Source: Artemia franciscana
Lineage: Eukaryota; Arthropoda; Branchiopoda; Anostraca; Artemiidae
Direction: 5' to 3'
NCBI RefSeq assembly: GCF_032884065.1
Contig: NC_088865.1
Location: 42,411,051-42,475,050 of the forward strand
DNA length: 64,000 nt
Positions 21,316 to 62,901 of this stretch are shown piece after piece. A program made the position numbers and the translations under genes. The stretch's first letter is position 1, and the number at the start of each line of letters is the position of its first letter. A model generated the notes under the pieces. That model saw nothing but the letters and a program-made list of their open reading frames with translations. It was not told the DNA's origin and made no database searches.

Positions 21316-21419
21316 AATCCCTCACAATAAGCCCGGTAAGTTACAACTTGGGACACAAAACTTATTCCTAAGACATTTTGCATACGCCATCTTGACAACC
21401 TGAATACAGACGGCATGTT

Positions 21420-24682: not shown

Positions 24683-24859
24683 GAAATGAGGAACAGTTGT
24701 ATTGGCTTATGAAAATGTGTCATCAAAATGAACCAATGGAATAAAAGCCACTGTTCAGCATGGAAGTACATGGCAGTAGTCTTTCCTCTGCCTTAAATTC
24801 TCTAATTGGCTTATATAATGGCTCTAACCTGATTAAATTTTGCTACCATGGCATCTTAC
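24683..24859 (-). repeat. Duplicated intron start beside IR first exon b
   Basis: Matches 15008-15179 closely: shared 'aatgaggaaca', 'attggctta', 'aatgaaccaatgga', 'ggtacatggc'-type and 'gattaaattttgcta' blocks. The exon duplication therefore extended about 170-180 bases into the intron. Confidence 0.7.
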
Positions 24860-25604
24860 CTGAGTATATTCTGCTGTCATTTGTATATGTTCCCTGTTTA
24901 ATTCCGCTTTTTAACGGGGGCACATACTTGATAGTAAAGTTGAATTTTTCAGCGTATGCTAGAATTGTCTGTTGATCAGGACCGTAGTATCGGATTGCAC
25001 CGTTCTCTTCCTTCGTTACAACAAATGGTGGCCGCTCCCATGTTGATACAAAAACATTTGAACCTTTTAAGTTTTTTAGACGTGTCTCAAATATCTTTTT
25101 TGAATCCTTGCCAGTAAATTTTCTTAATGTAACATTTCCTGACAAGTCAAAGAATTTTTGCTGAAAAATTTCAAAGCCTTTTTTGACCCATTTAATCACA
25201 AGGACTCTATTGAACTTTGATAAAATATTTGAATTTACGATTCTTTCTATAAAATTTGGTTCACCGTCATCCAGAAAAATTAGTAGATAACTCACTTTAA
25301 TTTTCTTCAGTTTGAGTTTTTTTTGGAGAACCTCGGATACGAGCTCAAGGTTCGAGGTGTGAAATAGTTGCACATTGCAGTTATTGTAATCTTCATTTTT
25401 GTTCAAGTCCTGCCGAAAATTAAGCAAACTGTGAGGAGTTTTTAAGATAACCAAAGGTGGATTCCAACTTGTAAAGTAATCAATGCAATATCCTGGATGT
25501 AGAAATTCAAAGAGTCTATCCAGAGATTTAAGAAGTTCCGATCTTGGAGAAGCTGAACTAACACAAAATGAAATTAATATAAAAGAATAACCAGTCTTCT
25601 TCAT
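24860..25604 (-). CDS. Ionotropic receptor, first exon b (N-terminus and S1)
   Basis: A paralogue of the exon at 15915-15180. ATG at 25604 begins a hydrophobic leader (YSFILISFCVSSAS, about residues 6-19), then the same short N-terminal region with conserved YCIDYFTSWNPPL, NCNVQLFHTSNLEL and FFDLSGNVTLR. The S1 half follows with NVFVSTWERPPFVV, YYGPDQQTILAYAEKFNF and KYVPP. It ends after 248 codons plus one base at TCAG/GTAAGA, the same phase-1 donor position as exon a. The frame is intact with conservative differences. No second exon of its own lies downstream before exon a, so the only compatible acceptor in the window is 12215. That splice would skip 12.6 kb and give a 591-residue receptor with an identical channel. 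It could instead be an orphaned duplicate. Confidence 0.85.
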
Positions 25605-34559: not shown

Positions 34560-34731
34560 TCATATAGCAGTCGAATTATCGGTAATCATAAAAGGTTGCA
34601 AATAGCAGGGTACGTCCATTCCGCTATCTTGTGTAATTGAAATCACAGCGCTCACAGTAGATGCAACCCCTCCTAATGTTCCGACAGCAATCATTACCCA
34701 ACAGATGATTCTCTCGATGATTGAAATTCGC
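34560..34731 (-). CDS. Amino acid transporter, last exon
   Basis: Acceptor 'ctttttag' precedes G at 34731. That base completes the arginine codon left open (phase 2) by the exon at 51641-51449. The exon encodes 56 residues, RISIIERIICWVM..., a final membrane helix with IAVGTLGGVASTVSAV (the GGxAST motif common at the C-terminus of Aa_trans proteins), then DVPCYLQP and a hydrophilic tail ending at TGA (34562-34560). It is too short to stand out as an open frame by itself; the splice phase and the family motif support it. Transporters of this family move neutral amino acids with protons or sodium across plasma or lysosomal membranes; substrate unknown here. Confidence 0.85.
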
Positions 34732-34892
34732 CTAAAAAGTAATTATAGTTTAATATTTGTTTCTAGCAGTGTCTGACAGCGAAAATAAGGAAACTAAATA
34801 CATATTAGTTTAAAGTGTGCCAAAATTTAATTGTGTGTTCTATCCGAAGAAACAAAATACTAGCTGAGTCCTGAGTAGTAGATACAATTGTT

Positions 34893-34990
34893 GCTACTAT
34901 TGACAGCTTATCACAGCACCAGGCCAGTGGGGGTCAACACAGCTGTGCATGTTAACCCTGTACCCCATTCAAGGGCATCCCCATTTGTCA
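34893..34990 (-). repeat. LINE-A 3' end fragment
   Basis: On the minus strand it carries the block 'gtgttgacccccactggcct', the counterpart of the LINE-A 3' end (GTGTTGGCCTCAGGCGGC), followed by a short TAG-type tail. It is a separate, more diverged copy than the one at 35228. Confidence 0.45.
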
Positions 34991-35227
34991 CGCATTCAAG
35001 GGTGTCCTGATTTTTTTGCCCTATTTGAATTGCCGAAAGTCAGATTTACTAAATATAATTTTGTTTATTTCATGAAACAAACTTCGGTAAAATTGAAAAT
35101 CAAGTAATATGAATTATCCGCTCCTTCAAACAGAAGAAATATCAAGATTTTCCCTATTTCTTGGATTGATGTGCTTTGCAATATCAAATTCTTTTATTAG
35201 CTGCCGTGATAAATTCTAAACTATGCC

Positions 35228-35783
35228 TATTACTTCTACTATTGCTAAAAACTCACTGTAGCACCGAGCCGCCTGAGGCCAACACAGCTATACACGCACA
35301 TATTTTATCCCAAATTCAATACCTTCCTCCTTAACCCCCCACCCCGAAAGAAATACCTTTTTCCTTAAATGTTACTTTACAATATCCTCCCACCACAATC
35401 GGGAACGACCTGCTTTTTGTTTAGCCCTGGACAGTTGGCCAAAAAGGAAAAATATTTGGCAATTTGTCAAAAGAACATATCCTACATATCTCAACCATTC
35501 TCTCACTATAGCCCTAGCAAGCGGGATTAAACAATCATTCAGGTTCTCAAAACAATCTGTAGGCAATTTCTCTGGAAAACACCTAGCAAGTCTTCCTTTG
35601 TTTCCTTGTTTTGGAGCGCACACACTTTAGAACCATGTTTGACCACTATCATCACTCTAGTTTCCTATATTCAAGTCTTGGGTTGCAGTCTTAACTTCCT
35701 ATTCTTCCAAAAAATGTGAACAATGAAAAAAGATTCTGGTCGCTGGCTATTCTACTTTCAACATTAACACTTCATCCCCCGTC
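35228..35783 (-). pseudogene. LINE-A, 3' part (downstream of the foldback insertion)
   Basis: Starting at the target site and reading leftwards: VESRIA-like codons, a WKNRK-type stretch, then VMIVVKHGS (post-palm region), and IPLARAIVREWLRYVGYVL, SRAKQKAGRSRLWWEDIVK, a typical LINE ORF2 C-terminus. The 3' end follows with 'gtgttggcctcaggcggctc' and a short TAG-type tail (about 35228-35250). It is full of stops. The preceding part of the same protein lies at 47895-47723, so this copy was split by the 11.9-kb element. Confidence 0.8.
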
Positions 35784-35995
35784 AGTAGTGACCGCCCTTC
35801 AGGCCCCATGACAGAATTATCTCTTCATTCCATGCCACTCCTAATTTTAAACGCATTCCTGTCCGACTATTTTTCGACAGCCAGGAAGTGCATGTTACGT
35901 AATAGGGGGTGTGTCTACTTTGGTCTTTACCTAATAGGACTTGGTTGTTACGGAATAGGGTGTTATTTACTTTTGAGGGTGAAATAATATTAAAT

Positions 35996-36310
35996 GACTT
36001 AGTAGATTTATTGGGAATGGCACGATCTCACATGACATGCTAGGGGCCCGTGGGGAAATCCCCGCTAGTAACTGAGGAGGGAAAGACACGTGGGTATTAC
36101 GTAATGACGGTTCACGCGTGTGTTTGACGTAATGACGGTGCATACGTGGGCGTTGCGTAAAGACAGGCACACGTGGTATGTAATGACAGCGCACACGCTG
36201 GATACTACGTAACGACGGCACGCACGTGGATATTACGTAATGGTCGTGCGCACGTCAGATGCTATGTAATGGCAGCGCATACATAAGGTTTTACATAATG
36301 ATGATGTACG
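35996..36310. repeat. Subterminal ACGTAATGACG/CACGTG array, left arm
   Basis: After 'acttagtagatttattggga' and the GGGGCCCGTGGGGAAA region come about eight units of roughly 30 bp, each with a variant of 'tacgtaatgacggtgcacac' followed by 'cacgtgg'. TGACGTAA-like and CACGTG cores recur. The complementary array is at 47160-47400. Confidence 0.8.
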
Positions 36311-36311
36311 T

Positions 36312-37690
36312 AGTAGTAGTAATAGTAGACAGATTTAGTAGCAAAAACTTGACAGCTATCGCTGATTTGTGTTTCTTTACAGCATATACAAAATCAAACT
36401 ACACTTGTAGATATAAATCAAACTATAAATATTAACTCTTATATTAACTCTAACCAGGACGAAAGAATTACCATATCGGTTTGTTCTTGCTTTAACGGGA
36501 ACTAACTTATCTTGCTTTATGGTTCTTGATGGTAGAGGTTGATCAGGTAGAATGTCACGGTGCTGAGATTTAGAAAGCAAGTACTTTCCAAAACTCATTA
36601 TCAGAGTTTCGTACCGGTTTTGGAGTGACGGCAGTCCTAGCACTTCCAGAGCCTTTTCGTAGGGGATGTAACGGCGGCCCAAGATGATCGATACCGCTCG
36701 CTTCTGAACCGATTCAAGCTCCTGACAAAGATACACTGTCCTAAGTGCTGAGGGCACCCAAACAGGGCACGCATATTCCAGAATGGGGTGGGCATACGCT
36801 ATGTATGCATACTTAATACTCTCTGTGTTTGCACTGAACCTACGCATACCGTTTAAAGTCTGTAGACTAGCGTTTGCACTTTTAACCACGTTTTCAATAT
36901 GTGCGGCAAAGCTGAAGTCATTGGAGAAAGTAACTCCAAGGATCTTGATACTGTTTGTTAGAAGGAATGGAACATTTGGCTCCATAACATCACTTTTTAG
37001 CCAGTTAAAGCGCACTATCTTTGACTTGTTCACATTAATCTCAAGATTTAGCTCCGCGCACTCTTTTGTGGAAACACTGAAAAAATTTGAACGGAATTGT
37101 GGCGCCAAAACTCCGTTTTGTACTAAATATTTCAGGATAAATGACAGGTCATCCACGAACTTGTAGCGGTCGTTATAGTCAGCTATGAGGAAGTTAATTA
37201 CAGACAAGAATACAATAGCTGCAAGCTTAGTGTCCTGAGTGGCTCCACAGGTGGATGAGGACCATTCGGAATTACTAGCACCTTCGTAGAGAGCAAACAA
37301 ACGATGCATCCTCTGACTGAGAAAGTCCAACACGAGCGTAAGAGTCTTTCTTAGCCCCCATTAGCTTGAGATTAAGGGCAGCTACAATGTGATTGATTAA
37401 ATCAAATGCCTTTCGGAAATCTATGGCACCAAGGTCTACAAAAATGTGACCTTTTTCGACCCACTTGAGGAGACTATCGTACATCCGCACTAGGTACACT
37501 GAGGTATTACAGTCTTTCAGTCCGCCGTATTGTCTCTGGTCGATAGATCCCTTGATTTGATCAAGTAAGACCCTAATGATAAAGGTCTCGGCCACTTTCG
37601 CCAGGCATGGTGTTTGCGAAATAGGTTTAAGTTCGTCACAGCTCTTAGGGTTGGTAACCTTCGGAATTATTCTAACGTAAGCTTTATATA
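36312..37690 (-). pseudogene. CR1/jockey-like LINE RT fragment inside the left arm
   Basis: Two overlapping minus-strand frames (37709-37275 and 37333-36377) encode a reverse transcriptase. RIIPKVTNPKSCDELKPIS and KVAETFIIRVLLDQI are the early motifs; FRKAFDLINH is the motif with the first catalytic Asp. After a deletion and frameshift come TKLAAIVFLSVINFLI and FVDDLS (the Y/F-x-D-D active site), then LNLEINVNKSKIV, ILGVTFSNDFSF, and the thumb and C-terminal region (EYACPVWVPSALRT, ESVQKRAVSIILGRR). The 3' end has a short TAC/TAG tail at 36312-36325. The right arm lacks it, so it inserted after the foldback element formed. It is non-functional, with no endonuclease and a frameshift. Confidence 0.85.
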
Positions 37691-38180
37691 ATACTTTAAA
37701 AGATTTCATTTTCTTTGGGATTTTTTTTAAAAGAGTTTTTTCTTCAGGATTTCATTTTCTTTCAAGGTATTTTTTTTCATTCCAGACGTCTTTCTCAGTG
37801 AACCTTTTTATTTCAACGAATTTTTCTCCAAATTAGGATTTAAAATCGATTCCTCCTCAATGGAACTATGCCTTGGATATCTGGATTATGAAAGTCTTTC
37901 TAACAATTCGACTCATCTAATACATTTTAGATGATAATTTATTGTATGCAAGGGGAATTCCCTTTTCGCACATTCTAGAATTATTAAGCTATTGATTGCA
38001 TATTCCCATGTGGCTGCAATTCTTGACATGCAGAGGAGAAAATCGGTTACTAGAAATTTCTTAAATTCGGTGTGCACCTGCAAGTTATGTAATGCTCTAA
38101 AGAGTGCTATCAGATAATATTGTGGGTTGTTCATATCGTATTTCTTCCCAATAGAATATTTTTTAAGCATTTAACGTTTT
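37690..38180 (-). repeat. Conserved block of the foldback element, left arm
   Basis: The complement aligns with 46640-47160 over its whole length at perhaps 75-80% identity by eye. On the minus strand 38170-37913 has an 85-codon open frame (YYLIALFRALHNLQV, LCMSRIAATWEYAINSL). The right-arm counterpart reads on the plus strand as FMSIIAAIWEHAINSL with one stop. No known protein is recognised. Confidence 0.6.
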
Positions 38181-38770
38181 TTGGTGTTTCCCTGCAAAAA
38201 TATTTGTTTAAAATAGAACCGATCATTTAAACTTAATGAAAATATCCCAATTAGAGTTTTTCTGATTCTTCCTAGCAATTGAGTTCAGTGTGACAGAAAC
38301 TACCAGCCTCTAATGAGACCCTTTTGACACATTTAAAACACTTAAGTCTTTTCAACCTCTTTTTCCCTCAAAAACAAAATTAGAAACTAAGAAATGCCCA
38401 TTATTTTGTTTGAACAGCGTAAACTTGTCATTTCAACTTGTCAAGCTAGACTGCAACATCCAAGACAATTCAAAGCCTATGACAGTCAATGGCTGACACA
38501 AGGCACCCTCTAGTAAGCATTTTCAAATATAAGACATTATTTGGGCATTTTCCTGCAAAATAATTATTTACACTAGAATCGAGCGTTTACAATTAATGTA
38601 AAATCCCCATTAGTGTTTCTTCTGATAGCTCCTGGCAGTTGAGGCCAGCGTGGCACAACTTACCAGCCCCCTGATGACACACTTCTGTCGCAAATTATCA
38701 TACCAAAGAGTTTTTCAACATTTCCCCCTCAAAAAACAAAATTATAAACTGGAAAATGACCTTTGTTTTT
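38180..38770. repeat. Two direct repeats of ~0.3 kb, left arm
   Basis: Unit 1 (about 38180-38440) and unit 2 (about 38525-38770) share 'ttt.cctgcaaaa.aatt', 'ttctgat..ctcctggca', and 'ccctcaaaaaacaaaatta'. The inverted counterparts are at 46080-46660 in the right arm. Confidence 0.65.
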
Positions 38771-41110
38771 ATTTGAACTTGTTGCGTGCTGATTTTTGTT
38801 CGTGAAACTTGTTGCATGTTGTAATTTCTCTTCGTGAAACTTGCATAGTGATGTTTCTCTTCGTGAAACTTATTTTGTTCATGTAATTTGTCACATGCAG
38901 ATTTTGTTTAAGGAACTTGTTGCATTTTGATTTTTTTTCATGGAGCTTGTTGCGTGCTGATTTTTCTTTGTGAAACTTTTTGCATGTTTTTTTTTCGTGA
39001 AACTTGTACATCGACGTTTTTCCTTACGAAACTGATTTTATTTAAGGAACTTGTTACGTATTGATTTTATATTCATGGAACGAGTTGCGTGTTGTTTTTG
39101 TTCCTGAAACTGATAAATTGATTTTCTCTTCATTAAATTGATTTTGCTCATGGACTTTGTTCAATGCTGATTTTTGCTCGTGGAACTTATTTCTTGGTCA
39201 TTTTATTGTTCGTAAAACTTGTTTTATACTGATTTTCTCTTCGTGCAACTTATACAGTGATTTTTGTTCTTGTGAAACTGATTTTGTTCATGGGACTTGT
39301 TGCGTGCTGAGTTTTGTTCGTGGAACTTGTTGTATGCTGATTTTCGTTCTTGAAATATTTTACATATTGCTTTTTCTCTTCGCGAAACTTGTAAATTGAT
39401 TTTTCTCCTCGAGAGACTGATTTTTTTCATAAAACTTGTGGCGTGCTCTTTTTGCTCGTGAAACTTGTTGTATCTAGATTTTTCTCTTCTTGAAACTTCA
39501 ACATTGATATTTTTCTTCGTAAAACAGGTTTTGATAATTGAACTTGTTGCGTGTAGATTTTGTTCTTGGAACTTATTGCGTGCTGATTTTTGTTTTTCAA
39601 ACTTTTGCATGCTGATATTTTTCTTTGTGAAACATTTACATCGATTTTTCTCCCCTTTAAACTGTTTTTGTTCATGGAACTTGTTCTGTGCTGATTTTTG
39701 TTCCTATAACTGGATGAGTGCTGATATTTGTTCGTTCAAATTGTTGCACATGGATATTTCTCTTCGGAAAATTTGTACATTGATTTTTCCCCTCGTGAAA
39801 CTGATTTTGTTCATAGAACTTGTTGAGAGCTTATTTTTTATTCGTAGAGCTTGCTGCGTGCTTGTTTTTTGTTTGTGAAACTTGTTACGTCTTGATTTTT
39901 CTCTTCATGAAACTTGTAAAATGATGTTTCTCCTCGTGAAACTACGTTGTTCAATGATCTTGTTGCGTGCTGATTTTCGTTCGTAGAGCCTATTGCTCGC
40001 TGATTTTATTTTTGTTCGTAGAGCCAGTTGCGTGCTGAGTTTTGTTCGTGAAACTGGTTGCATGTAGATTTTTATCTTCGTTAAACTTGTACATTGAGTT
40101 TTCTCCTAATGAAACTTATTTTTTTCATGGAACTTTTTGTCTGCTGAATTTTTGCTCCTGGAACTTGCTGCGTGCTGATTTTTCTTCGTGAAATTTTGAA
40201 TATCTTGATTTTTCTTTTCGTGATACTTGTACATTGATGTTTATCCTCACAAAACTGATTTTTTTCATAGAAATGTTTTATCAGTTCCTGGAACATAAAG
40301 CGTGCTGATTGTTGTTCGTGGAACTTGTTCCGTATTGATTTTCGTTTGCAAAACTTGTTGCACGTTGATTTTTCTCTTCATGGAACTTGTAATTTTTTTT
40401 CCCCGTGAAACTAATTTCTTTTCATGGAACTTGTTTTGGGTTAAGTTTTCTTGGAACTTGTTGCGTACTGATGTTTGTTTCTGGATGTTGTTACATGTTG
40501 GTGTCTCTCTTTATGAAATTTTTACATTGATATTTCTTCTCGTCAAACTAATTTTGTTCATGAAACTTCTTGCCTGATGATTTTTTGTTTATGGAACTTG
40601 CTGCTTGCTGATTTTTGTTCTTAAAACTTGTTTTTCTCCTCACGAAAGTGATTTTGTCCATAGAAATTGTTGAATGCTGATTTTTTTTGTGAAAATTGTT
40701 GTTTGCTGATTTTCGTTCTTAAAACCTGTTGATTTTTCTCTTCTTGAAGCTTATAAATTGATTTTTCTCCTTGTGAAACTGATTTTGTTCCTGCAACTTA
40801 TTGATGGCTGATATTTGTTTGTGGAACTTTTATTTGTGCTGATATTTGCTCATGAAACTTGTTGCATGTTTACTTCTCTCCTCATAAAAGTGATTTAATT
40901 CATGGAACTTTTCACGTGCCTATTTTGTTTGTGGAACTTATTGCCTGCTTATTTTGTTTACATCACTTGCTGTATGTTGAATTTTCCTTCTTGAAACGTG
41001 TACATTGATTTTCTTATCATGAAACTGATTTTGTTGATGGAAGTTTTTGCATTCTGATTTTTATGTGTAAAACTTGTTGCATTTTTTTCTTAGTGAAACT
41101 TGTACATTCT
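38770..41110. repeat. Satellite array, left arm (2.3 kb)
   Basis: Tandem monomers of about 33-36 bp built on 'gaaacttgttgcgtgctgat' plus 'ttttgttcgtg'. They alternate with variants 'cttgtacattgatttttctc' and 'gaaactgattttgttcatgg', giving a loose higher-order unit of about four monomers. All open frames here (rich in K, N, S or F, L, C) are shadows of the repeat. Confidence 0.9.
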
Positions 41111-41190
41111 ACTCCTAACCTAAATATTGTAGATCAGGTGTTGGTTCTGCCAAGCTTGGTACATTCCCCAGAACCTAAACTAACAAACTA
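41111..41190. other. Central spacer of the foldback element
   Basis: About 80 bases unlike the monomers ('taaatattgtagatcaggtg', 'ctgccaagcttggtacattc') at the point where the satellite changes orientation. It contains a small palindrome, CCAAGCTTGG. It would be the loop of an intrastrand foldback. Confidence 0.8.
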
Positions 41191-44100
41191 AAAGTTCCAT
41201 GAACAAAATCAGTTTCACGAGGAGAAAAAAATGAATGTACAAGTTACACGATGAGAATAACAAACATACAACAATTTCCACTAACAATAAATCAGACAAC
41301 ACCAAGTTTCACGAACAAAAATTCGCATTCAACAAGTTCCATGAGCAAATTTAGTCTTACTAGGAGAAAAATAAATGTACAAGGTTCACGCACGGAGAAA
41401 TGAACATGCAACAAGTTTCACGAACAAGATCAGCTTCCCGAGGACAAAAATCAATGTACAGGTGTGACGAAAAGAAAAATCAACATGCAATAAGTTTCAC
41501 AAACAGAATCAGCATGCAACTAGTTTACGAACAAAAATCAGCACGCAACAAGCTCTATGACAAAATTAGTATCACGGGGAGAGAAAATCAATGCACAAGT
41601 TTCAAGGAGAGAAAAATCAACATGCAACAAGTATCGCGAACAAAAAACAGCGTGCAACGAGTTCCATGAACAAAAATCAGCACCCAATAATTTCCAGGAC
41701 TAAATCAGTTTAACGAGGAGAAAAATCAATTTACAAGCTGAACAAACAAAAATCAGCACGCAGTAATTTCCAGGAACAAAATCAATTTCACGAGGACGAA
41801 ACCAGTGTAAAAGTTCCACGAAGAGAATAATCAACACGCAATAAATTTCAAAAACAAAAATCAACACGCAACAAAATCCAAGAACAAAAATCAGCAAGCA
41901 TCAAGCTCTATGAACAAATCATTATTACAATGAGAGAAAATCAATGTACAAGTGTCAAAAGAAAAATCAACATGCAACAAATGTTGCGAACAAAAATAAG
42001 GACGCAAAAAGTTCCATTAACGAAAATCAGCACGCAATAAGTTACAAGAACAAAGTCAGTTTCACGAGAAGAAAAATCAATGTACAAGTTCAACGAATAA
42101 AAATAAGCACAAAACAAATTCCATCAGCAAAATCAGCTTTACGAGGACAAAAATCAATATAAAGGTTTAATAAAGAGAATCATTAACGTGAAATAAGTTT
42201 CGCGAAATAAAATCAGCACGTAACAAGTTCCAGATTGCAACAAGCTCAATGAAAAAAATCCGTTTCACTAGAAAAAAATCAGTATAGATCATTTACAAAG
42301 AGAAAAATTAACAAATAACAAGTTCTGCGATTAAAATCAGCAAAAAACAAGTTCCACAAACAAAAATCAGCATACATTAAGTTCCAGGAACAAATGAGTT
42401 TGACGAGGAGAAAAATCAATGTACATGTTTCAAGAAGACAAAAATCAACATGGAACAAGTTCTACGAAAAAAATAGCACGTAACAAGTTCCACGAGTAAA
42501 AATAAGCACGCACTAAGTTCCATAAATAGGATTAGTTTCACGAGGAGAAAATCAATGTACAAGTCTTAAGAAGAGAAAAATCAACATACAATAAGTTTCA
42601 CAAACAAAATCAGCGCGCAACAAGTTTCACGAACAAAAACCAGCACGTAACCAGTTCTATGAACCAAATCAGTTTCACGAGGCAAAAAATCAGTGTACTA
42701 ATTTCACGAAGAGAAAAATCAAATGCAGCAAGTTTCGTGAACAAGAATTGGCACGCAACAAGTTCCTCGAAAAACAATCAAGAAGCGACGAGTTCCAAGA
42801 ACAAAATCATTTACATGGTTCTAAAAATCAATGCACAAGTTTCACGAAAAGAAAAATCAACATACACCAAGTTTTTCAAACAAAAATCAATAATAAACAA
42901 GTTCCACGAACAATAATCAGCACGCAACAAGTTCTGTAAACACAATCAGTTATACGCGGAAAAAATCAGCGTACAAGTTTAATGAAGAAGAAAAATCAAC
43001 ATGCAACAAGTTCTGCGAAAAAAAGTTTCAGGAGAAGAAAAATCAATTTACACAATTAGTTTCACGATGAGAAAAATCCATGCATAAGTATAAAGAAGAG
43101 AAAAATCAACATAGACCAAGTTTAAAAAAAGTAAGCATGCAACAAGTTCTACGAACAAAAATTAGCGATCAACAAGTTCCATGAGCAAAATCAGTTTCAC
43201 GAGGAGAAAAAAACAATCAATAAGATTCACAAAGAGAAACATCAACATGCAACATGTTTCATGAACAGAAATCATAAAGCAAAAAGCTCCATGAACAAAA
43301 ATCAGGAAGCAACAAGTTCCATGAATAAGATCGGTTTAACGGGGACAAAAATCAAGGCACAAGTTTTGCGAAGAGGCAAATGAACATACAACAAGTTTTA
43401 CGAACAAAAATCAGAATGCAACAAGTTCTACAAACAAAAAATCAAAATGCAGTAAGTTCTATGAACAAAATCAGTTTCACGGGGAGAAACATCAATGTAT
43501 AAGTTTCACGAAGAGAAAAATCAAGATGTAACAAGTTTTAAGAACAGAAATTAGCACGCAGGAAGTTTCACAAACAAGAAAAAAGCACACAAGAAGTTCC
43601 ATGAACAAAAACAGTTTCACAAGGAGAAAAATTGGATTACAAGTTTCACGGAGAAAAATCATCGTGCAACCAGTTTTGCGAACAAAATCCGCACTTAACA
43701 TGTTCCATGAAAAAACAATCCATATGCAACAATTTCCTTGGATTAAATCAGTTTCAAGAAGAGAAAAATCAATGTACAAGTTATGAAGAAAAAAATCAAC
43801 ATACAATAAGTTTCACAAACAAAATCAGCGCGCAACAAGTTTCACGAACAAAAACCAGCACGTAACCAGTTCTATGAACCAAATCAGTTTCACGAGGCAA
43901 AAAATCAATGTACTAATTTCACGAAGAGAAAAATCAAAAGCAGCAAGTTTCGTGAACAAGAATTGGCACGCAACAAGTTCCTCGAAAAACAATCAAGAAG
44001 CGACGAGTTCCAAGAACAAAATCATTTACATGGTTCTAAAATGTAGCAACTTTCACAAATAAAAATCATCACGCAATAAGTTCCACGAGCAAAATCAAAC

Positions 44101-46070
44101 CGTAGCAAGCTCCAAGAACAAAATCAGTTTCATGAGGAGAAAAATCAATGTACAAAATGCAACAAGTTCTACGAACAAAGATCAGCAAGCAACAAGCCCC
44201 ACGATACAAATCAGCACGCAACAAGTTCCGTGAATAAAATCAGTTTCACGATGAGAAGAATCAATTTACAAGTTTCATGAAGAGGAAAATCAACAAGCAA
44301 CAAGTTTCACGAACAAAATTCAGCACACAACAAGTTCTACAAACAAAAAACCCGCATGCAAAAGTCCCATGAACAAAATCAGTTTCATGATGAGAACAAT
44401 GAATGTACAAGTTTCAAGAAGGGAGAAATCAAGATACCACAAGTTTCATTAATGAAAATCAGCGCGCAACAAGCTCAAGAAACGAAAAATCAGCATGCAA
44501 TGAGTCAAATGAATAAAATCAGTTTCGTGAAGAGAAACATCAATGTACAAGTTTCATGAAAAGAAAAATCAAGATGCAGCAAAGTCCACAAATAAAAATC
44601 AGCACGAAACAAGTCTCATTATTAAAATCAGTTTCACAAGGGGAAAAATTAATGTACAGGATTAACGAAGAGAAAAATGATGATACAACAAGTTTCAAGA
44701 AAAAAGAAAATCACGATCTAAGTTCCACGACCAAAAATTTAGCACGCAACAAGTCTTATGAGCAAAATCAATTTCATAAGGAGAAATATCAAACCACAAG
44801 TTTCACGAACTGAAAAATCAAAATGTAACAAGTTTCACGAACAAAATCAGCACACAACGAGTTCCACGAACAAAAAACAGCAAGCATGAAATTCTATGAA
44901 AAATCAGTTCCACAAGTAGAAAAATCAATTTACAACTTTCAGGAAAAGAAAAATTCAACGTGCAACAGATTTCATGAAAAAATCAACAACACACAGAATA
45001 AAATCAGTTGCAAGAGAAGAAAAATCAATGTACAAGCTTCACAAAGAATAAAATCAACATGAACAACTTTCACAAACAAAAATCGGCATGCAACAAGTTC
45101 CACGAAAAAGTCATCCCATTAACAAGTTCCATAAACAAAATCAGTTTCACGAGGAGAAAATCAGTGTGAAAGGTATACAAAGGGAAATATCAAGGTGCAA
45201 CAGTTATCACGAACAGACATCAGCACGCAACAAGCTTCACGAAAAAATTAACACGCAACGCGTTTCATGAGTAAAACTGTTTTCACGAGGAAGAAATCAG
45301 TGTTTGAGTTTTACGCAGAGAAAAATCAATGTACAATAAGTTTCACGTGCAAAAATAAGTACAATGCAAGTTCTACGAACAAAACCAGCTCGCAACAGTT
45401 TCCATGAAAGAGCCAGTTTCATGAGGAGAAAATTCAATACACATGTTTCACGAAGAGAATAATCAATAGGCAACAAGTTTCACGATCAAAAGAATTGCCA
45501 AGCAATGTTCCATGAACAAAAAATCAATACGCAACAAGCTCTATGAACAAAAATAGTTTCATCTGGAGAAACATCAATTTACAAGTTTTATGAAGATAAC
45601 AATCGATATGCAACAAGTCTCGTGGAAAAAAATCAGCACGCGACAAGTTCTAAGAACAGCAATCCTCACACAGGGAGTTCCATGAACAAAATCGGTTTCA
45701 CATGAGAAAAATCAATGCACAAGTTTCACGAAGAAAAAATGAATATGCAGCAAATTTCATATACAAAAATCAGCATGCAACAAGTTCCACGAACAAAAAT
45801 CGGCATGCAGCAAGTTCCATGAATAAAATCAGTCTTATGAAGAGAAAAAATCAAGATACATCTTTCACGAATAGAAATGATACTTCAACAAGTATCATGA
45901 ACAGAAATCATCACACAACAAGTTCCAGGAACAAAAATCAGCTGGTGATGAGTTCCATGAACAAAATCAGTCTCATGAGGATTAAAATCGAAGTACAAGT
46001 TTTACGAAGAGAAAAAACAATATACAACAAGATTTATGAACAAGAATCAGCACACAACTAGTTCAAATAA
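41191..46070. repeat. Satellite array, right arm (4.9 kb)
   Basis: The same monomers in the opposite orientation ('caacaagttccacgaacaaa', 'aatcagcacg', 'gaggagaaaaatcaatgtac', 'aagtttcacgaagagaaaaa'). It is twice as long as the left array, so the arms have expanded or contracted independently since they became inverted. The many K/N/S/Q-rich open frames are not genes. Confidence 0.9.
42577..44040 (+). repeat. Recent 248-bp duplication inside the satellite
   Basis: Segments 42577-42824 and 43792-44040 are nearly identical base for base, including irregular landmarks such as 'aagaattggcacgcaacaag' and 'caagaagcgacgagttccaa', while neighbouring monomers are much more diverged. The offset is about 1215 bp. 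Confidence 0.85.
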
Positions 46071-46079
46071 AAGTAATGG

Positions 46080-46660
46080 TCAGTTTTTAGTTCATAAATT
46101 TATTATTGAGAGAAAAATCTTGAAAATACCTTAGGTGTGATAATATCTGCCAGAAAGATGTCATCGTGGGCCTATTACATTGTGCCACGCTGGCCTCAAT
46201 CACTAGAAGTCATCAGATAAAACGCTGGTGAGGATTTCTCGTTAAGTTTAAATGATCGATTATAGTGTAAATAAATATTTTTGTAGGAAAATGCCTGAAA
46301 AATGATATACGGGTGATAATGCTTGCTAGAGGGTGCTATGTCTCAGCCGTTGAGTGTCACAGGCTTGAAATTGTCATGGAATATCGCATTCTAGCAATGA
46401 AATGACAATTTTCTACTGTTCAAATAAAGACAAGGGTCATTTTTTACTTTACAAATTTATCTTTTGGGAAAAAAAGATTGAAAAACCCCTAGTTGTGATA
46501 ATATGCACTGAAGAAGAGTGTCATCGGTTGAGGGAAATTGTGCCATGCTGACCATAATTATTGGGAGTCATCAGAACAAATAATAATTAGGATATATTTA
46601 TTAAGTTTATATAATCGTTTATATTTTAACCGAAAATTTTTGCAGGAAAATGCCCGGAAA
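46080..46660. repeat. Two direct repeats of ~0.3 kb, right arm
   Basis: Units near 46080-46310 and 46420-46650, each with 'ggtcattttt..ac/gtt...aaattta', 'gtgataatatgc', 'catcag' and 'tttt.gcaggaaaatgcc'. These are inverted counterparts of 38180-38770. Confidence 0.65.
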
Positions 46661-47160
46661 ACGCCGTCTTTGTCAAAAAGACTCTAGTAGTAAAAATACG
46701 ATATAAGCAGCCTGCAATATTACCTGATAACGATCTCTAAAGCATTACTAAATATGTAAGTGCATGCCAAATTTAAGCCAGTTCTAGTAATCGAATTTCC
46801 CCTCTTCATGTCAATTATTGCTGCCATATGGGAACACGCAATCAATAGCTTAGTCATTCTAGTATGCGCGAATAGGAGATTCTTCTTTCTAACAATAGAT
46901 TATCATGTAAAATCTCTTAACCGAATCAAAATGTTTGAAGGACCTTCATAGTCCAGATGTCCAAGGTAGAATTCCATTGAGTGGCAATTCCTTGTGAATC
47001 CTAACATAGACATAAATCTTGGGCTTATAATTATTTCCTGAGAAAAACGTATTAAAAGAAAAAAAATCCCTGAAAGATAATGAAATCTTGAACCAAAAAA
47101 GCTTTGAAAAAAAGGAATCCTGAAGAAAATAAAATCTTTTAAGGCTTTATGTAACATCCC
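46660..47160 (+). repeat. Conserved block of the foldback element, right arm
   Basis: Complement of 37690-38180. It ends 'ttttaaggctttatgtaaca', where the left arm instead has the LINE junction near 37690. Confidence 0.6.
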
Positions 47161-47465
47161 ACGTATACATCGTCAATACGTAACACCCTACGTGTGCGTT
47201 TCTATTACGTAGTATCTTACGTGTGCACCTGCATTAGGTAGCATCCAAGTGTGCGCCTTCATTACGTAACGTCCAACTTTTGCGCTGGCACTACCTAATA
47301 CCTGACATGTGCGCTGCCACTACGTAACACCTAGGTTTGCATCGTTATTACGTAACACCCACGCGTGTGCCCTCCTCAGTTACAAGCGTGGACTTCTTCA
47401 TGGGCCCCTTAAGTCTAGCGTATCACGCGAGACAGTGTCATTCCCAATTAATCTACTAAGTCACG
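47160..47465. repeat. Subterminal ACGTAAC/CACGTG-type array, right arm
   Basis: About eight units of 'attacgtaacacccacgtgtg' type, then the gggcccc block and 'cccaattaatctactaagt'. Complementary to 35996-36310 and more diverged than that array. Confidence 0.8.
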
Positions 47466-47722
47466 TAAAATTACATCACCCTCAAAAGCTAACAATATCC
47501 TATTATGCAACAACCAAACCCTATTTGGTAACAACCAAAGTAAACAAACCCCCCCTATGACGTAACATGCACCTACGACTAATAGAAAACATTCCCTATT
47601 ATATGACGCAACTTGCATATGCTGGTTGTCATGGAGTGGTAGGATAGGAATGCATTTAAAACTAGAAATGTCATGGAATGGAGGGATAGGGCTGTCATGG
47701 GATCTTAAGGGTGATCACTACT

Positions 47723-47895
47723 CCTGTCTTTGTTAATAGTACTATCTAGGTTAGTGAAGCAGTCAAATTGATCGATCTTCTCATTCCTTAATATCAACTT
47801 TTCACCTTCACTTATTCCTAGTCTTCGCGATTTAGTCTTTTTAACACTAATTTTCAAACTTATTCTTGCACCATGAACTCAAAAAACCTCTAAAA
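47723..47895 (-). pseudogene. LINE-A, part upstream of the foldback insertion
   Basis: The minus-strand frame from 47895 reads ARISLKISVKKTKSRRLGI, then EKIDQF and STINKDR, the segment just after the RT active site in this LINE family. It breaks at the foldback terminus (47722), and the next codons of the family are found at 35783 on the other side of the element. The RT palm itself is not seen upstream of 47895. Confidence 0.75.
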
Positions 47896-49569
47896 ATATA
47901 TTTATTTTGAGCAAAATCTAACTTGAAGAGAGCTATACTTCCAAGTTGATTCTGTATTTTTCCATTGCCTTTGCTGTGCTCCTCAGAACAATGTACAACA
48001 AAATGATCCGAATAAATGGGAACAGGACGCAACTAATAAAGTTTAGTGAAAATATGTAATCGCATGTGTTAAAAAATTTACTTAAAAAGTTTTAAAAGTG
48101 CCTAAATCACAATTTTAATACTAATAAACCTTATTTTTGTAGACTTCATGAAATTACTTTCTTACCATTTGACTTAATCTTGCTCAAATTGGCATACTAA
48201 AAAGATTTTATAACACCTTTGCCAAATATAGTAAATCAATCCTTATATTGGTCTGAAACCTACTAGGATTGAATACAAAAAGTTTTGAGTCCTCCGAATT
48301 TCAGAATTTTCCACACACGCCTTCCTTGTTTAGTGGGGTAGAGAAAAAACTGGTATAATACGCTCGTATAGACTGTTGCTACTGCTGATGTCGGCTTGAC
48401 TCATTATCTTTATCTTATGCTACTATTTCCTTTTACTCATTTTAACTTTAGTGCGATTTTTCAAATACCATGGGAGAACCCAATCTCGCGGGTAGTGTTG
48501 GCAGCCGAATATGAATGCTCATTTTGAGAAAGGAGTTTGCAATTACAGTAAAATTGCTACGGTATTATTTATGGTGATATTAACTACTTGGTGATAAAGA
48601 GCTATTGCAGAGCTACCAACTGTATGGATGATAGCTTATCGTGGCTGCTACAATAGCTGTAAGATAGTAAACACAGAAATGTAGTGGAAGGTAACCGGAA
48701 GTTTTGAAGTTACCGATTTGGTTAAAACTGTCTAGTAAGAAAAATGTGTCATTTAAATTTAGTTAAGGCATAACAACTGTAATATAGTAATAGTAAAATG
48801 TTTACTGCAGAGATGAATTTTCCGGAATTTGAAAAGAGCTTGAAAATTCTTAAAAATTGCGCGGATCGAAATACAAGCTGCAAAATTGGAATCGTTAAGG
48901 ACAAAAGCCTTTCATAGAATGCATTGAACCCCCATTAAATAAAGCAAGGAAAATAATTTCTTTGCATGATACGCGTCTCCTTTTTCGCCAGCGCTAGCAG
49001 GCTATCACAAGATTGTATACAGATATGTAATGGCTAATTCAAAACTCATAGTTATATCTACAGGTTTTTTCGTAAGTTCTTCCTGGTAACACCATCACCA
49101 TATGACACCGGCAATGGTACATATCAGAGTCATTTCTGAAGTTGGGAGGTTGGGAAGCATAACAAGGGTACCACTATTATATGTATAGTTGAAAATCTTT
49201 AGTCGAAGGCCCCCCCTCCTCCCTTTAGCCTATACTCCCTTCCTGTTCTCTTTAATAACCCTTAGAGAGACTTTGACATTTTTTAATTTTATCAAGAGGA
49301 ATCCACCTGAAAAAAAAAATTACACTATAAGGTGCTTCAGTGATAACAGTTCCAATCTAGAAAAGTTGCCTCTGAGCAGCTATTAACCTCCAGCTCCGTG
49401 GATGATTTCACCGACCAATGCATAGCTTGAGATAATTGAGAGATAACTTGAGATAACTGAGATAACTTGAGATAATTGAAGTAAGTAAATCTGAGATAAC
49501 TAAGATAACTTAATAATTGAGATAATCGAAGTAAGTAAATCATAATGCTAATCTTTTATCTCCATCAAA
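47896..49569. other. No gene seen (transporter intron)
   Basis: AT-rich intronic sequence. A (GATAACT)-type short repeat lies at 49428-49540. No recognised coding exon. Confidence 0.5.
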
Positions 49570-49723
49570 GGTCATATCCAGAATTTTTGTTCGGGGGGGG
49601 GGGGTCCTGTTTTTTAACTTTAAAAAACCATCAATTTTTTTAATTTGCATGGTGTTATGTTTTTACGAGTGGGACAAACAATTTGCAGGGGTTCAAAGTC
49701 CTTACTTCCCCCTGGATACGGCC
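49570..49723. mobile_element. 154-bp MITE, GGYCRTATCC termini, copy 1
   Basis: The left end is GGTCATATCCAGAATTTTT and the right end CCCCCTGGATACGGCC, giving a ~12-bp inverted terminus. It aligns with 53273-53424 throughout, with shared 'ttatgtttttacgagt.ggacaaaca' and 'tcaaagtcc'/'tcaaatcc' blocks. Contains a run of 10 G. Confidence 0.65.
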
Positions 49724-50274
49724 TTGTCCTCAGATAATACCATCTATGCGTGATCAAAATCCCACGACCTACTTTGGGATTCCTGAAAATATTTGCAATC
49801 TCTGGATTGAAATTATCTATATACGGCGTCTGATTTATTTTTCTTTGTGTATGTTCTCATTACTGTATTGTCTTGTCGTCAAAGGGAATCATTCGATATG
49901 GTTGAGAAATCAGCTAATGCAATTCATCTTCCGTTTGTTGGGCAAGTTTGTCAAATACATACAGATACAACATTAGAGAAAGGAGCAAAGAAATTAAAGA
50001 AAGGAGTAAATTAGCCTATTATTTTCAAGCGCCTTATTCGTTACTGAATTAAGCTAAAAAAGGTTTTACAAAATATGATTGTCAAAGAAAAGGGATAAAC
50101 GATAGAAAAACATAAAACTAGTAAAAATTAAATGCATATTTTCTGTTATACGTATACCAGTATTTAAAATATATTTTTAAGTCGTTTACTCGTGGATTAT
50201 GTAAAAGGATACCTAAATTGGCTCTGAAACACTTTGTTATCCCTGCTGTTGTAATAAGCGAGGCTTTTATCAAC
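49724..50274. other. No gene seen (transporter intron)
   Basis: A 97-codon plus-strand frame (49683-49976) starts inside the MITE and has no recognisable domain, so I do not call it. The remainder is AT-rich. Confidence 0.45.
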
Positions 50275-50545
50275 ACACACGCAATCCTCAGCGCCCCGCT
50301 CTTTACGCTAACGCCCCGTTACGCTAAACACGTCTACGTTGCGTCTTTTCCTCCTCAACGCCCCGCTCTTTACGCTAGAGTTTATTAGTGTTTTAAAAAG
50401 TAGAGTTAAGAGAAAGAGCAAAACTTTAGTGCAAAGAGCGAGGTGTTGAGGAGGAAAAGCCCCTCTCATATACGGAGTAATTTCTGTTCGTTTTAAATTT
50501 TAATGTTGCTCCTTACTTTCATTTAAAAAACCTTGTTTTTTTATT
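50275..50545 (+). repeat. Family A palindrome
   Basis: Palindrome A with 'ctcctcaacgccccgctctt' and 'tacgctagagttt' against 'aactttagtgcaaagagcga' and 'ggtgttgaggagg'. A partial extra copy of the left arm (50280-50330) makes it asymmetric. The right flank reads 'ttgctccttactttcattt'. The matching family A terminus lies beyond an inserted LINE at 51085-51150. Confidence 0.7.
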
Positions 50546-50995
50546 TAATTCATAATCAGGGCCTTCCAGATTGTTTCGCAGGTATATTTAGTGAGAGGTC
50601 AGATGTTTACCAGAACGAAACTCGGATGCGAGGAAATATTGAAGTTCCTCGACTTGCTTTTAGTAGGTCTTTATTTTCTCTTGTTTATAGAGCTTCCAAG
50701 CTTTGGAATAAACTTAGTAAAGATAGTAAGGATAATGGTAATTTCAACAAGGTTAAATCTGACTTACGTGTGGAGTTGCTCGGTAGATGGGGTATTTTTC
50801 CTTATTATTTGTGTGTTATTTTGGGGTTTTATAACGTTGTGTTTCGTTGTTTATTTTTCATGTTGGTTTCTTTGAATGGTCTCATGCTCCATACTCTTTC
50901 TCTTTTTTTCTTTCTTTTTTATGTTAGCACATCCTCGCAAACTCCACTTTTGTTGTGCTATTATATAAAAAATGATTATTTTCAATAAAATTGTT

Positions 50996-51073
<78 letters not shown>

Positions 51074-51090
51074 TTACTACTACTGCTACT
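50546..51090 (+). pseudogene. LINE C-terminal fragment with long (TAC)n tail
   Basis: The frame from 50551 encodes GLPDCFAGIFSERSDVYQNE, TRMRGNIEVPRLAFSRSLFS and RASKLWNKLSKDSKDNGNF, the pattern of the extreme C-terminus of CR1/jockey-like ORF2 proteins (a 'TR..' block followed by 'xxWNxLP/S'). It runs on into a hydrophobic non-conserved tail. It is 5' truncated and ends 'ttcaataaaattgt' followed by about 25 TAC repeats (50997-51085). The serine-rich minus-strand frame opposite the tail is a shadow. Confidence 0.65.
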
Positions 51091-51150
51091 ACTATTGAGT
51101 CGTGTCACTCCTTACAACGGTTTGTTACCACGAACTGTTTGAACCGCTGT
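51085..51150 (+). repeat. Family A terminal end with hairpin
   Basis: 'tactattgagtcgtgtcact' then 'ccttacaacggtttgttacc' and 'acgaactgtttg', the 3' end of family A directly after the LINE's TAC tail. Together with 50275-50545 it brackets the LINE fragment. Confidence 0.6.
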
Positions 51151-51448
51151 TATCCTCTTGGAAATGTATCTACAACATCTATTAGTCCTAGAAGTATCAT
51201 CATACATAGCAATTTGCTTGCAACAGAACCCAAGATGATTTCTCTGCAATTACCACACCCACCGTTATTAGTTTTTTTCTACAGAGGGTTTAATTGAAGC
51301 TTTATTAAAATGACTTGGTACTTTCTCTTCTTAAAAATCTATTATTTCGAATCCCTTTTCTATGCTTGATTTAGCACTAAAGAAGGTTTCATAGGATCAG
51401 TTTATGACCATTATTTTTTAAGCTTGTAAGTAAAGACTTTTCGCGTAC
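51151..51448. other. No gene seen (transporter intron)
   Basis: Short intronic stretch leading to the donor site of the exon at 51449. Confidence 0.5.
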
Positions 51449-51641
51449 CTCTCTATCCACTCGGGTTTCCTCTGGTCAACAATCCTCATATAGAAAAGAG
51501 GCGGTAAAATAAATGTAAGTAGACTGATAGTTGATCCCCCAACAAGGTCAAGAATTTTTCCAAATCGTGGCACCGTTTCTGCGATGAACAAAGCCAAAAG
51601 CATTAGCAATGTACGAGTTACTATTCTCTTCCATGTCATTT
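51449..51641 (-). CDS. Amino acid transporter, penultimate exon
   Basis: Acceptor 'tttttttcacag' ends at 51642 and donor GAGAG/GTACGC follows 51449. Phase 1 in, phase 2 out; both match the neighbouring exons (62902 and 34731). It encodes MTWKRIVTRTLLMLLALFIA, ETVPRFGKILDLVGGSTISL, LTFILPPLFYMRI and KPEWIER. The LxxVP.F..IL.L.GG(S/T) and FILPPLFYM motifs are those of transmembrane segments 8-10 of Aa_trans/SLC32-36-AVT transporters. The Met at the start is not an initiator: the reading frame enters from the previous exon with a Glu codon. The frame is intact. Confidence 0.9.
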
Positions 51642-53424: not shown

Positions 53425-54085
53425 TTGGTATAACCACTACTACCACTTCTATTATCACTACTACAACTGCGTCTACTGCTACTGGTACTACTACTAAAAC
53501 TGCTACTACTACTATTACTAGTTCTAGTGCTACTACTACTAATGCTGCTGGTGCTTCTATTACTACTACAACTGCGACTATACTACTACTACTTCTTCTA
53601 TCACTACTACAACTGTGTCTACTGATACTGGTACTACTACTAAAACTGCTACTACTACTACTACTACTAGTTCTAATTCTACTACTACTAATGCTACTGG
53701 TACTTCTATTACTACTACAACAACTACTATTACTACTACCATTACTAGTTTTACTACTACTATTACTACTACCACTACTACTACCTCTATTATTACTGCA
53801 ACTGCTACTACTGTAACGATAACTGCTACTACTACTACGATTACTACTAGTTCTATTACTACTACTGCTTCTATCACTCCTTCATCTGCAACTAATGCTA
53901 CCACCATACTAGAACAACTGCTACTACTACCACCAATATCACTAGTTCTACTAGCTCTAATACTACCACTGCTACTAACACTACTATTATTTCTATTACT
54001 CCTACAATTGCGACTATGCTGCTACTGCTACTACTACAACAACTACTACTAATGCTACCATTACTGTTTCTTTTGCTACTACTAT

Positions 54086-54124
<39 letters not shown>

Positions 54125-54235
54125 AAAAACTACTACTGCTAATACTTCTAAGCTACTGCCACAACTAGTACTACTACTACAATCGCTACTACTAATGCTA
54201 CTACCATTACTACTACTGCTATTACTACTACTAAA
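53425..54235. repeat. 0.8-kb degenerate (CTA)n array, LINE-A tail
   Basis: Trinucleotide array with many ACTACTACT runs interrupted by ACTGCTACT, TTCTATTACT and similar variants, including a direct repeat of about 150 bp (53440-53585 versus 53590-53735). It adjoins a LINE-A 3' end at 54236 on the minus strand, so it reads as an expanded 3' tail (TAG)n. The Thr-rich and Val-rich frames on the two strands are artefacts. Confidence 0.8.
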
Positions 54236-59628: not shown

Positions 59629-60319
59629 AAAATCAAATGGTCAAGGAGGCAGGGATATAAGCAGGGAGAAGTTTATAAGGTCACTGAAATCTTTTTATTT
59701 TTTGTCACCTGTATAAAAATTTACAAGTGTTTCAAAACTAGTCGAAAGTTCAACATTTCCCAGTGCAAATACACAAAATATTTTTACAGATTTTTAGGAC
59801 TTCTTGTTGTGTTTCAAAACCTAATTTGAAACAAAATTATAGAGCAATGGCCCTGAAGGTCGGCGTATATTTCTGAAATCGTCAATGTTTTCGCTACGGA
59901 GACTGCTCCTGTGGGTTGTTTACGATGCATCGAAAAAGTAGTCACATCACCCATCATATCAAACACAATAAAATTTATTTCACATGCCTGCTTAATTTAT
60001 GCTACTTTTTGTAACCATTGAATATCTCTGCACCAAGGATGGGTCATCGTTGCACAAACTTTGGATTTATCGCTGAATTGTGGAATATATGTCATCACGT
60101 CCTATATGAAAAATACATCCTAGGATTTCATAATATTACACTTGAGCAAAAAATAAGGATTTTTAGCTTTCCGCAGCATCAGTTTTCATTCAAGGATTAA
60201 AACAAAAAAAAGTTTTATCCTTATTTCACTATTTTTCTCAAATTTGGTATATACAGTAAAAAATTATGTTTAGTAGTCGTTATACTAGAGGCACGTCTCT
60301 TCTACTTGCTATAAATAAA
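59629..60319. other. No gene seen (transporter intron)
   Basis: A 60-codon plus-strand frame (60018-60200) has no recognisable domain. Otherwise AT-rich. Confidence 0.45.
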
Positions 60320-61418
60320 AAAAACTAGTTTTTTTAACTGAAAGTAAGGAGCGACATTAAAACTTAAAACGAACAGAAATTACTTCGTATATGAAAGAGG
60401 CTGCTTCCTCATCAACGCCCCGCTGTTTACGCTAAAGTTTGACTCTTTCTCTCAACTCTTCTTTTTAAAACAGTAAAAAACTTTAGCGTAAAGAGCGGGG
60501 CGTTGATGAGGAAGCAGCCTCTTTCATATACGAAGTAATTTCTGTTCGTTTTAAGTTTTAATATCGCTCCTTACTTTCAGTTAAAAAAACTAGTTTTTTT
60601 TATTTATTTCTGAACGTTTTTGAATTAATGCATGTTTGATTTTGGCTCTCCGCACATAAATTATTGAAATGAAATTAGTATATTAATTTTTTTTGGCTAA
60701 AACGTCTGTACACTTCCCCATAACCATTACTATATGTAAACACTGGTCAAAGTTTGTAACTTGCAGCCCCTCCCCCAGGAATTGTGGGGGAGTAAGTCAT
60801 TCCCAAAGACATAGTTATTATGGTTTTCGACTATGCGGAACAAAATGGCTATCTTAAAATTTTAATCTGTTGACTTTTGGAAAAAAATTAGCGTGGGAGG
60901 GGGCCTATTTGCCCTCCAATTTTTTTATCACTTAAAAAGGGCACTAGAACTTTTCATTTCCGTAAGAATGAGCCCTCTTGCGACACTCTAAGACCACTTG
61001 GTCGATACGATGACCCCTGGGGAAAAGAAAAAAACAACAACAAACAAACAAATAAACACGCGCCCGTGATTTGTCTTCTGGCAAAAAATATGAAATTCCA
61101 CATTTTTTTAGATAGGAGCTTGAAATTTTCGCTATAGAGTTCTCTGATATGCCGAATGCGATAGTGTGATTTTCGTTAAGATTCTATGACTTTTAGGGGA
61201 TGTTTCCCCCTTTTTTCCAAAATAGGGCAAATTTTCTCAGGCTCGTAACTTTTGATGACAAAGACTAAATTAATTGGAACTTATATATTTAGAATCAGCG
61301 TGAAAATTCGATTCTTTTGATGTATCTTTTAGCATCAAAATTCCGTTTTTTAGAGTTCCGATTACTATTGAGCCGGGTCGCCCCTTACTACAGTTCTTTA
61401 CCACGAACTGTTTGAAAA
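60320..61418 (+). mobile_element. Family A element, internal deletion of palindrome B
   Basis: An excellent palindrome A (about 60327-60598): 'aactgaaagtaaggagcgac' on the left is answered by 'tcgctccttactttcagtt' on the right, with 'aactttagcgtaaagagcgg' arms. The palindrome B region is missing. The body resumes at 'acgtctgtacacttcc' and reaches the terminus 'gagccgggtcgccccttact' and hairpin 'cagttctttaccacgaactg' at about 61418. Confidence 0.75.
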
Positions 61419-61759
61419 GAAAATAATTCGGTATTTCGGGGCTTCTGACATTATTAATCCTTTGCGGAAGTTAGGCTCAAAATTGAAAAAGGATTATATT
61501 TTTTCTCTGGGCCCCTTCCACCTCTTAGTTCGTTTATTTTCCCGTTAGTTTTCACCTGTTTTCGCTTTATAGTTGTGTTATCTCTTAGCAGTTCTTTCGT
61601 TAGTTGAGTTATGGTTGTGGTATATATGTTTTATCGCTCGTATAGTTATGTTATTTTCAAATTATACTCCATAATAGAGAGGCTCCGAACATCCAGTATT
61701 GTATATTAAGCTCTGAATTTGACGTTTTTTTCTAACGTGACCAGATTCGTCCTGCGCCC
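61419..61759. other. No gene seen between two family A copies
   Basis: Unique-looking sequence with pyrimidine-rich stretches ('gttagtt' repeats around 61555-61610). Confidence 0.4.
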
Positions 61760-62578: not shown

Positions 62579-62901
62579 TGAAGCAACATGCTTCTATAAA
62601 TAAAATGGTGGATAAAATGGTGGTATCCAAATGGAAATTTTCTCACTTTTTGATAATACTGAGATATTTGAAACATATTTCAATTTTTTTTTTAGATGAA
62701 ACTTTTATTTTTATAAAGTAATGTAAAAGACCTTCATTTTTTATCCAATGGATTTGCAAACCATTGAAGTGATAAGTAGCTTTGTGTTTTTGTCCCTCAA
62801 CTAAGTAAGAAGTACCACAAGGACTAAGACTAGTATATCAAAATGTGTCCTTACTCACTCCTAAGGTAGTAAAAGTTATAAGTCAAAGCATTAAGGAATA
62901 C
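62579..62901. other. No gene seen; intron start
   Basis: Short AT-rich stretch that ends at the donor site of the exon at 62902. Confidence 0.5.

Follow-up and report, generated by a model that had tools for sequence, protein, structure and literature searches.

We analyze here a foldback element that occupies positions 35784-47722 of a 64,000-nt stretch of the Artemia franciscana genome (GCF_032884065.1, NC_088865.1:42,411,051-42,475,050; this whole stretch is hereafter the window), and we consider it likely that the element is a foldback DNA transposon, non-autonomous and now dead, whose ends were once recognised and inserted in trans by an integrase of the Polinton/Maverick type. This reading is based on the mirrored arms of the element, its (AGT)2GA ends, the 6-bp duplications at its borders, the convergent pairing of such ends across the genome and the presence in the same genome of PolB elements with (AGT)2 termini of their own, some of them with tandem repeats in the terminal arms. 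Satellite arms are already known from other foldbacks, such as Tetris of Drosophila virilis, and what is new here is the Polinton-type ends. A literature search, judged by titles and abstract openings, turned up neither a description of the family, which an earlier note on this DNA had suggested could be undescribed, nor any foldback assigned to Polintons.

The window element consists of three mirrored zones, which follow one another from each tip inward as an outer zone T, a middle zone M of ~1.1 kb and a satellite zone S, around a centre of ~80 bp. The left arm comprises T (35784-36310, plus strand), with a ~28-bp tandem array in its inner part (36086-36242) detected with Tandem Repeats Finder (TRF), M (37684-38770, plus) and S (38771-41108, plus); past the central spacer (41109-41190), the right arm comprises, in inverted order and on the minus strand, S (41191-46077), M (46078-47154) and T (47157-47722), so that the tips of the element read 5'-AGTAGTGA...TCACTACT-3'. 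BLAST comparison of the window with itself recovers the inverted repeat 37684-41101 / 47154-43808 with E=0 and 68.6% identity, satellite included, while in global alignments the outer zones (35784-36310 against 47722-47157) are 78.3% identical over 506 columns and the middle zones 77.2% identical over 1046 columns, leaving the T and M arms 22-23% divergent between the two sides. The AT skew changes sign at ~41.1 kb. The two long inverted arms, of ~4-6.5 kb, make up most of the element and contain internal tandem repeats, as is characteristic of foldbacks.

The satellite arms run in opposite orientation and are unequal in length (2338 bp on the left and 4887 bp on the right), confirming the mirrored design and the 2.3 and 4.9 kb proposed in the earlier note; the unit, estimated there at ~35 bp, has to be corrected to 29-30 bp with a higher-order period of 137-140 bp, as determined by TRF and autocorrelation (the right arm has peaks at 30, 29 and 137 bp). 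The claim that every zone is mirrored stands for T, M and S and fails for ~36311-37683, where ~1.4 kb of a long interspersed nuclear element (LINE; minus strand, boundaries approximate) is confined to the left arm. Neither of the two open reading frames (ORFs) of this fragment, 36377-37333(-) and 37275-37709(-), has a Pfam match of its own; the former has 18 protein matches, more than half of them with the RVT_1 domain (PF00078), and the best of these, at 56% identity, is an A. franciscana protein with a reverse-transcriptase domain. All ORFs of at least 100 aa in the element are those of the LINE, its antisense or frames of the satellite, and no PolB, integrase or capsid ORF was seen in the ORF list of the element (Pfam was run on the two LINE ORFs only). 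The window copy is old, probably dead, and carries no visible transposition gene.

Both ends of the window element carry the terminal (AGT)2/(ACT)2 motif of Polintons/Mavericks. They are bordered by CCCGTC on the left (35778-35783) and CCTGTC on the right (47723-47728), the two copies of a target-site duplication (TSD), which match at 5 of 6 positions. Summed over seven paired copies of the family, the match between flanks is 76% at 6 bp, compared to 10-39% at 3-5 and 7-10 bp, pointing to a TSD of 6 bp. At least four of the six positions match in six of the seven pairs, with 5/6 in the window, 6/6 in L033, 4/6 in L045, 5/6 in C18, 6/6 in C2A, 5/6 in C19 and 1/6 in C2B, the left end of which reads AGTAATGA. 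Three of these copies (window, L045 and C19; TSD matches of 5/6, 4/6 and 5/6) have exact AGTAGTGA at both ends, and the flanks of L045 additionally match 4/4 at 4 bp. The exact sequence AGTAGTGA is present in 12 of 36 inspected family ends and AGTAGT in 14, the remainder being decayed or unrecognisable. The combination of (AGT)2 ends with a 6-bp TSD is the Maverick signature, which goes beyond what the earlier note had read from the element: in vertebrate Mavericks, (AGT)2//(ACT)2 is reported to be the most frequent terminal motif, and elements that are intact are flanked by TSDs of 6 bp (PMC8097293).

These ends recur across the genome (1,270,528,402 bases in 6468 contigs). The query AGTAGTGATGCCNC has 179 matches, against one for its backwards control, and this set of AGTAGTGATGCC ends was followed up through the 100 places listed. 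Among these, the four neighbours that lie within 20 kb of each other are all convergent, and none is convergent among three more distant ones, which lie 42-48 kb apart in tandem or divergent orientation. Among the matches compared, convergent pairs of family ends within 40 kb occur at nine distinct loci and divergent pairs at none. Examples of convergent end pairs that span 12-25 kb are C8:1831266-1847561 and C2:39847387-39860397. A fuzzy search with the first 22 bases of the window element against the loci fetched for the family returned the window's own ends, the left end of L042 and scattered unconvincing matches, indicating that the ends have diverged beyond the tip.

The window element is a member of a large, old, genome-wide family. 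The T-zone search, in which the best 40 of 685 candidates were scored, gave 41 matches, around which 20 stretches were fetched, representing 18 separate places. T is found on both strands, face to face, at 7 of 19 places including the window (the others being L033, L035, L037, L042, L045 and L038), and some of the remaining places are truncated by the border of the stretch that was fetched. Six of these seven two-sided copies clearly show the zone order T-M-S; of S, L038 retains no more than scraps, and L037 lacks the inverted counterpart. The existence of further copies with this zone order, AGTAGTGA ends and 6-bp duplications is the outcome in favour of the checks that the earlier note had proposed. 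The inner ~600 bp of M matches more than once in L032, L036 and L041. Arm identity ranges from 0.725 to 0.906 within copies (7 pairs, the highest being L038) and from 0.693 to 0.975 between copies (203 pairs, mean 0.758); the arms of a copy are overall no closer to each other than to those of other copies, which fits a single old burst. In five copies (L045, L033, L035, L042 and L032) the satellite reverses its orientation across a short spacer or none at all. By eye, the centre of L041 looks homologous to that of the window element, and L041 was not among the matches listed when the window spacer was compared to the fetched loci by BLAST.

Two candidates were discarded in this part of the analysis: a terminal query built from L041, which matched a different repeat within that locus, and a ~14.9-kb pair on C19 considered as an autonomous partner, for which the middle one of two 1.5-kb samples contains LINE-like ORFs, judged by eye. 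That the family acts as a source of satellite DNA, as the earlier note proposed, is so far no more than a hint. The genome search with the satellite, limited to the best 40 of 1496 candidates, also returned three matches in one orientation at 11.3-kb spacing (G000:C3:47591669, 47602976 and 47614272), probably a tandemly duplicated unit that includes satellite.

Elements encoding PolB share this genome. A search with PF03175 (DNA_pol_B_2), for which 91 of 154 candidates were scored, gave 44 matches, and Polinton ends were sampled from one family (family 1) by reading four regions upstream of PolB (L051, L052, L073 and L074). The PolB-side regions of L051 and L052 are 90.9% identical up to a point no more than 3 bases from ACTACT, where homology stops; the same ACTACT terminates L073, preceded there by an array of ~140-bp units. 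A genome search with the family-1 terminal inverted repeat (TIR), scoring the best 40 of 139 candidates, placed this repeat within 30 kb of 17 of the 44 PolB matches; among the other 27, the match on C583 also belongs to family 1. Among the matches listed, the family-1 TIR forms nine convergent pairs spanning 9.5-35.6 kb, and the one divergent neighbour lies between two TIR-paired elements on C12. Some copies of the TIR contain ~140-bp tandem arrays. Taken together, the three ends and the TIR search establish that PolB elements with (AGT)2 ends, some of them with tandem-repeat TIRs, coexist with the foldback family.

The terminal ~140-bp arrays of these Polintons were located at L073:822-1385, G000:C1:51565041-51565592 and G000:C103:2079731-2080469. 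The 140-bp period that they have in common with the foldback satellite is, as far as the sequence goes, a coincidence: a derivation of the satellite from the Polinton terminal unit was considered and rejected, given that the lengths agree and the sequences do not. Two family-1 TIR pairs of 9.5-10.6 kb with no PolB listed between them (G000:C1:51191394-51201977 and C15:14281149-14290626) are possibly internally deleted Polintons. The occurrence of AGTAGTGATACCC at position 3426 of L051 was left aside, since it is oriented away from PolB and leads into an ORF that resembles a LINE.

Several observations weigh against a Polinton connection. None of the 44 PolB matches comes closer than 100 kb to any of the places compared (40 family ends, 40 T-zone places and the 100 of 179 end motifs listed), and the ORF list of the window element includes no protein-primed PolB. 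Beyond AGTAGT, comparison of the family-1 Polinton end with the foldback zones gives no similarity (best match at E 0.18), and this hexamer is all the terminal sequence that the foldbacks have in common with the one Polinton family sampled. In the fourth Polinton region (L074), similarity is lost just before the end. One of the seven paired copies (C2B) lacks a TSD, and L033, C18 and C2A each have one decayed end that was placed by eye, a procedure that can favour a match. Finally, a 6-bp target is also used by Ginger2 and is hence not specific to Polintons. With no PolB near it at the places compared, the family is not classed as Polinton; it would at most be a non-autonomous dependant of such elements.

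The main alternative is an ordinary foldback from the Mutator or the P superfamily, comparable to FB, Tetris or Galileo, or from another class of DNA transposon, in which the Polinton-like ends arose by chance. Most foldbacks have been assigned to Mutator, Galileo, a member of the P superfamily, being one of the exceptions, and the architecture of Tetris is very similar to that of the Artemia family: it is described as non-autonomous, with long TIRs made of a flanking and a tandem-repeat domain, an inner part, no conserved ORFs and repeats that also form longer arrays (PMC4079207). The failure to find a coding Polinton attached to the foldback family at the places compared also fits this alternative. 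However, Tetris has 220-bp repeats and TSDs of 8-10 bp, and its authors suggest Mutator (PMC4079207), whereas the Artemia foldback has arms of ~4-6.5 kb, 30/140-bp repeats, (AGT)2 ends and a flank profile that peaks at 6 bp and falls to 27%, 27% and 34% at 8, 9 and 10 bp. The match at 7 bp is likewise 27%, at odds with a Galileo or P-superfamily TSD, although transposases of that superfamily were not searched. FB and Galileo of Drosophila, which share with the window element the foldback shape and the tandem repeats inside the arms, differ from it in end sequence and in TSD length, 9 bp in FB and 7 bp in Galileo. Ginger2 resembles the family in its 6-bp target and retroviral-type integrase class, but has TGTNR ends and prefers an AT-rich RTATAY target (PMC2836005), in contrast to the AGTAGTGA ends and mixed targets of the foldback, such as the CCCGTC/CCTGTC of the window. 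Helitron and long-terminal-repeat readings were set aside from the ends and the TSD only; no search aimed at them was made. That AGTAGT is common to the foldbacks and to PolB elements of the same genome is improbable by chance, at ~1/4096 for a given hexamer. We regard this alternative as unlikely.

Another possibility is that the palindrome originated by snapback, when a linear Polinton genome with protein-primed replication gave rise to a defective copy folded back on itself, which was later integrated and spread. Two loci invite this comparison. On C14 (18488410-18502695), two PolB-side halves converge within 14.3 kb with a family-1 end on both outer sides, in the order family-1 TIR (+, 18488410), PolB (+, 18491209), PolB (-, 18498725) and ACTACT end (18502695). 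A 501-bp PolB-side probe, scored for the best 40 of 57 candidates, matches both halves at C14 and a second convergent pair on C3 (51993349 / 52001981, ~8.6 kb). Both loci resemble palindromic Polintons, and adeno-associated virus offers a precedent for snapback defective genomes (PMC8235507). They may also be neighbouring insertions: among the matches listed, the four pairs of PolB regions closer than 15 kb include a divergent one (C103) and a tandem one (C21) besides the two that converge, so that clustering of separate insertions can also explain the convergence. Moreover, the C3 pair has no family-1 end among the matches listed, and no sequence ties the foldback arms to a Polinton half. We hold a snapback origin of the palindrome to be unlikely. 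The fuller version, in which each foldback descends from a defective, palindromic genome that a protein-primed linear replicon of Polinton type left integrated, with snapback mirroring one end, an integrase inserting the product with 6-bp duplications and the terminal repeats then expanding into satellite, likewise seems to us improbable; were snapback the origin, C14 and C3 would show this process in recent cases. An assembly artefact, in which chimeric reads or a wrong joining of the arms produced the fold, has in its favour that palindromes are difficult to assemble and that this assembly is reported with a contig N50 of 383 kb and reference-guided scaffolding (PMC11492255). Yet the divergence of the T and M arms, at 22-23% of sites, speaks against a recent assembly fold, the satellite arms are unequal in length and independent places with different flanks repeat the same zone order, making an artefact scarcely credible.

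The reading that we favour remains that of a foldback transposon mobilised in trans by a Polinton-type integrase. It has in common with Polintons/Mavericks the (AGT)2//(ACT)2 ends, the terminal inverted repeats and the 6-bp TSD, the latter as compared to vertebrate elements (PMC8097293), and departs from them in consisting of nearly nothing but arms and in its subterminal sequence, which is unrelated to that of the only Polinton family sampled. Under this reading, a Polinton-type integrase supplied in trans would have recognised the (AGT)2GA ends and inserted the element through 6-bp staggered cuts. The arms may have grown by tandem duplication inside the TIR at several scales, involving 25-bp, 28-bp and 30/140-bp units as well as segments within M, and the copies would have spread in one old burst, after which palindrome instability could have shortened or removed the centres and made the arms unequal.

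As the earlier note had proposed, the element lies in a host intron. The exons of an amino-acid-transporter gene (Aa_trans) flank it on both sides: the last coding exon (34561-34731, minus strand, acceptor TTTTTAG), on the 3' side of the intron, has no Pfam match when taken alone, and the preceding exon (51449-51641, minus) is supported by its splice sites and a match to PF01490 (E=7.8e-16). When these two are joined with 62902-63108(-), the product matches positions 241-408 of 410 of PF01490 with E=6.9e-32. The foldback element therefore sits inside the 16.7-kb intron 34732-51448. Elsewhere in the window, probable ionotropic-receptor genes were noted on the minus strand at 11185-12204, 15163-15915 and 24843-25604; the first has a Lig_chan match just under the cut-off (E=7e-7) and a 68% A. 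franciscana homologue, and the other two are alike by eye and have no Pfam match. The window also contains another dispersed repeat family (8862-10449, 19615-21318 and 60312-62579; 81-89% identity, both orientations), ~800 bp of imperfect ACT trinucleotide repeat (53436-54233) and a 297-bp tandem repeat of 3.4 copies (935-1934).

The existence of a large foldback family whose ends are of Polinton type would suggest that non-coding, satellite-bearing parasites, too, can be driven by virus-like integrases. If true, this reading would link Polinton biology to satellite DNA and provide a system for asking how palindromic derivatives form.

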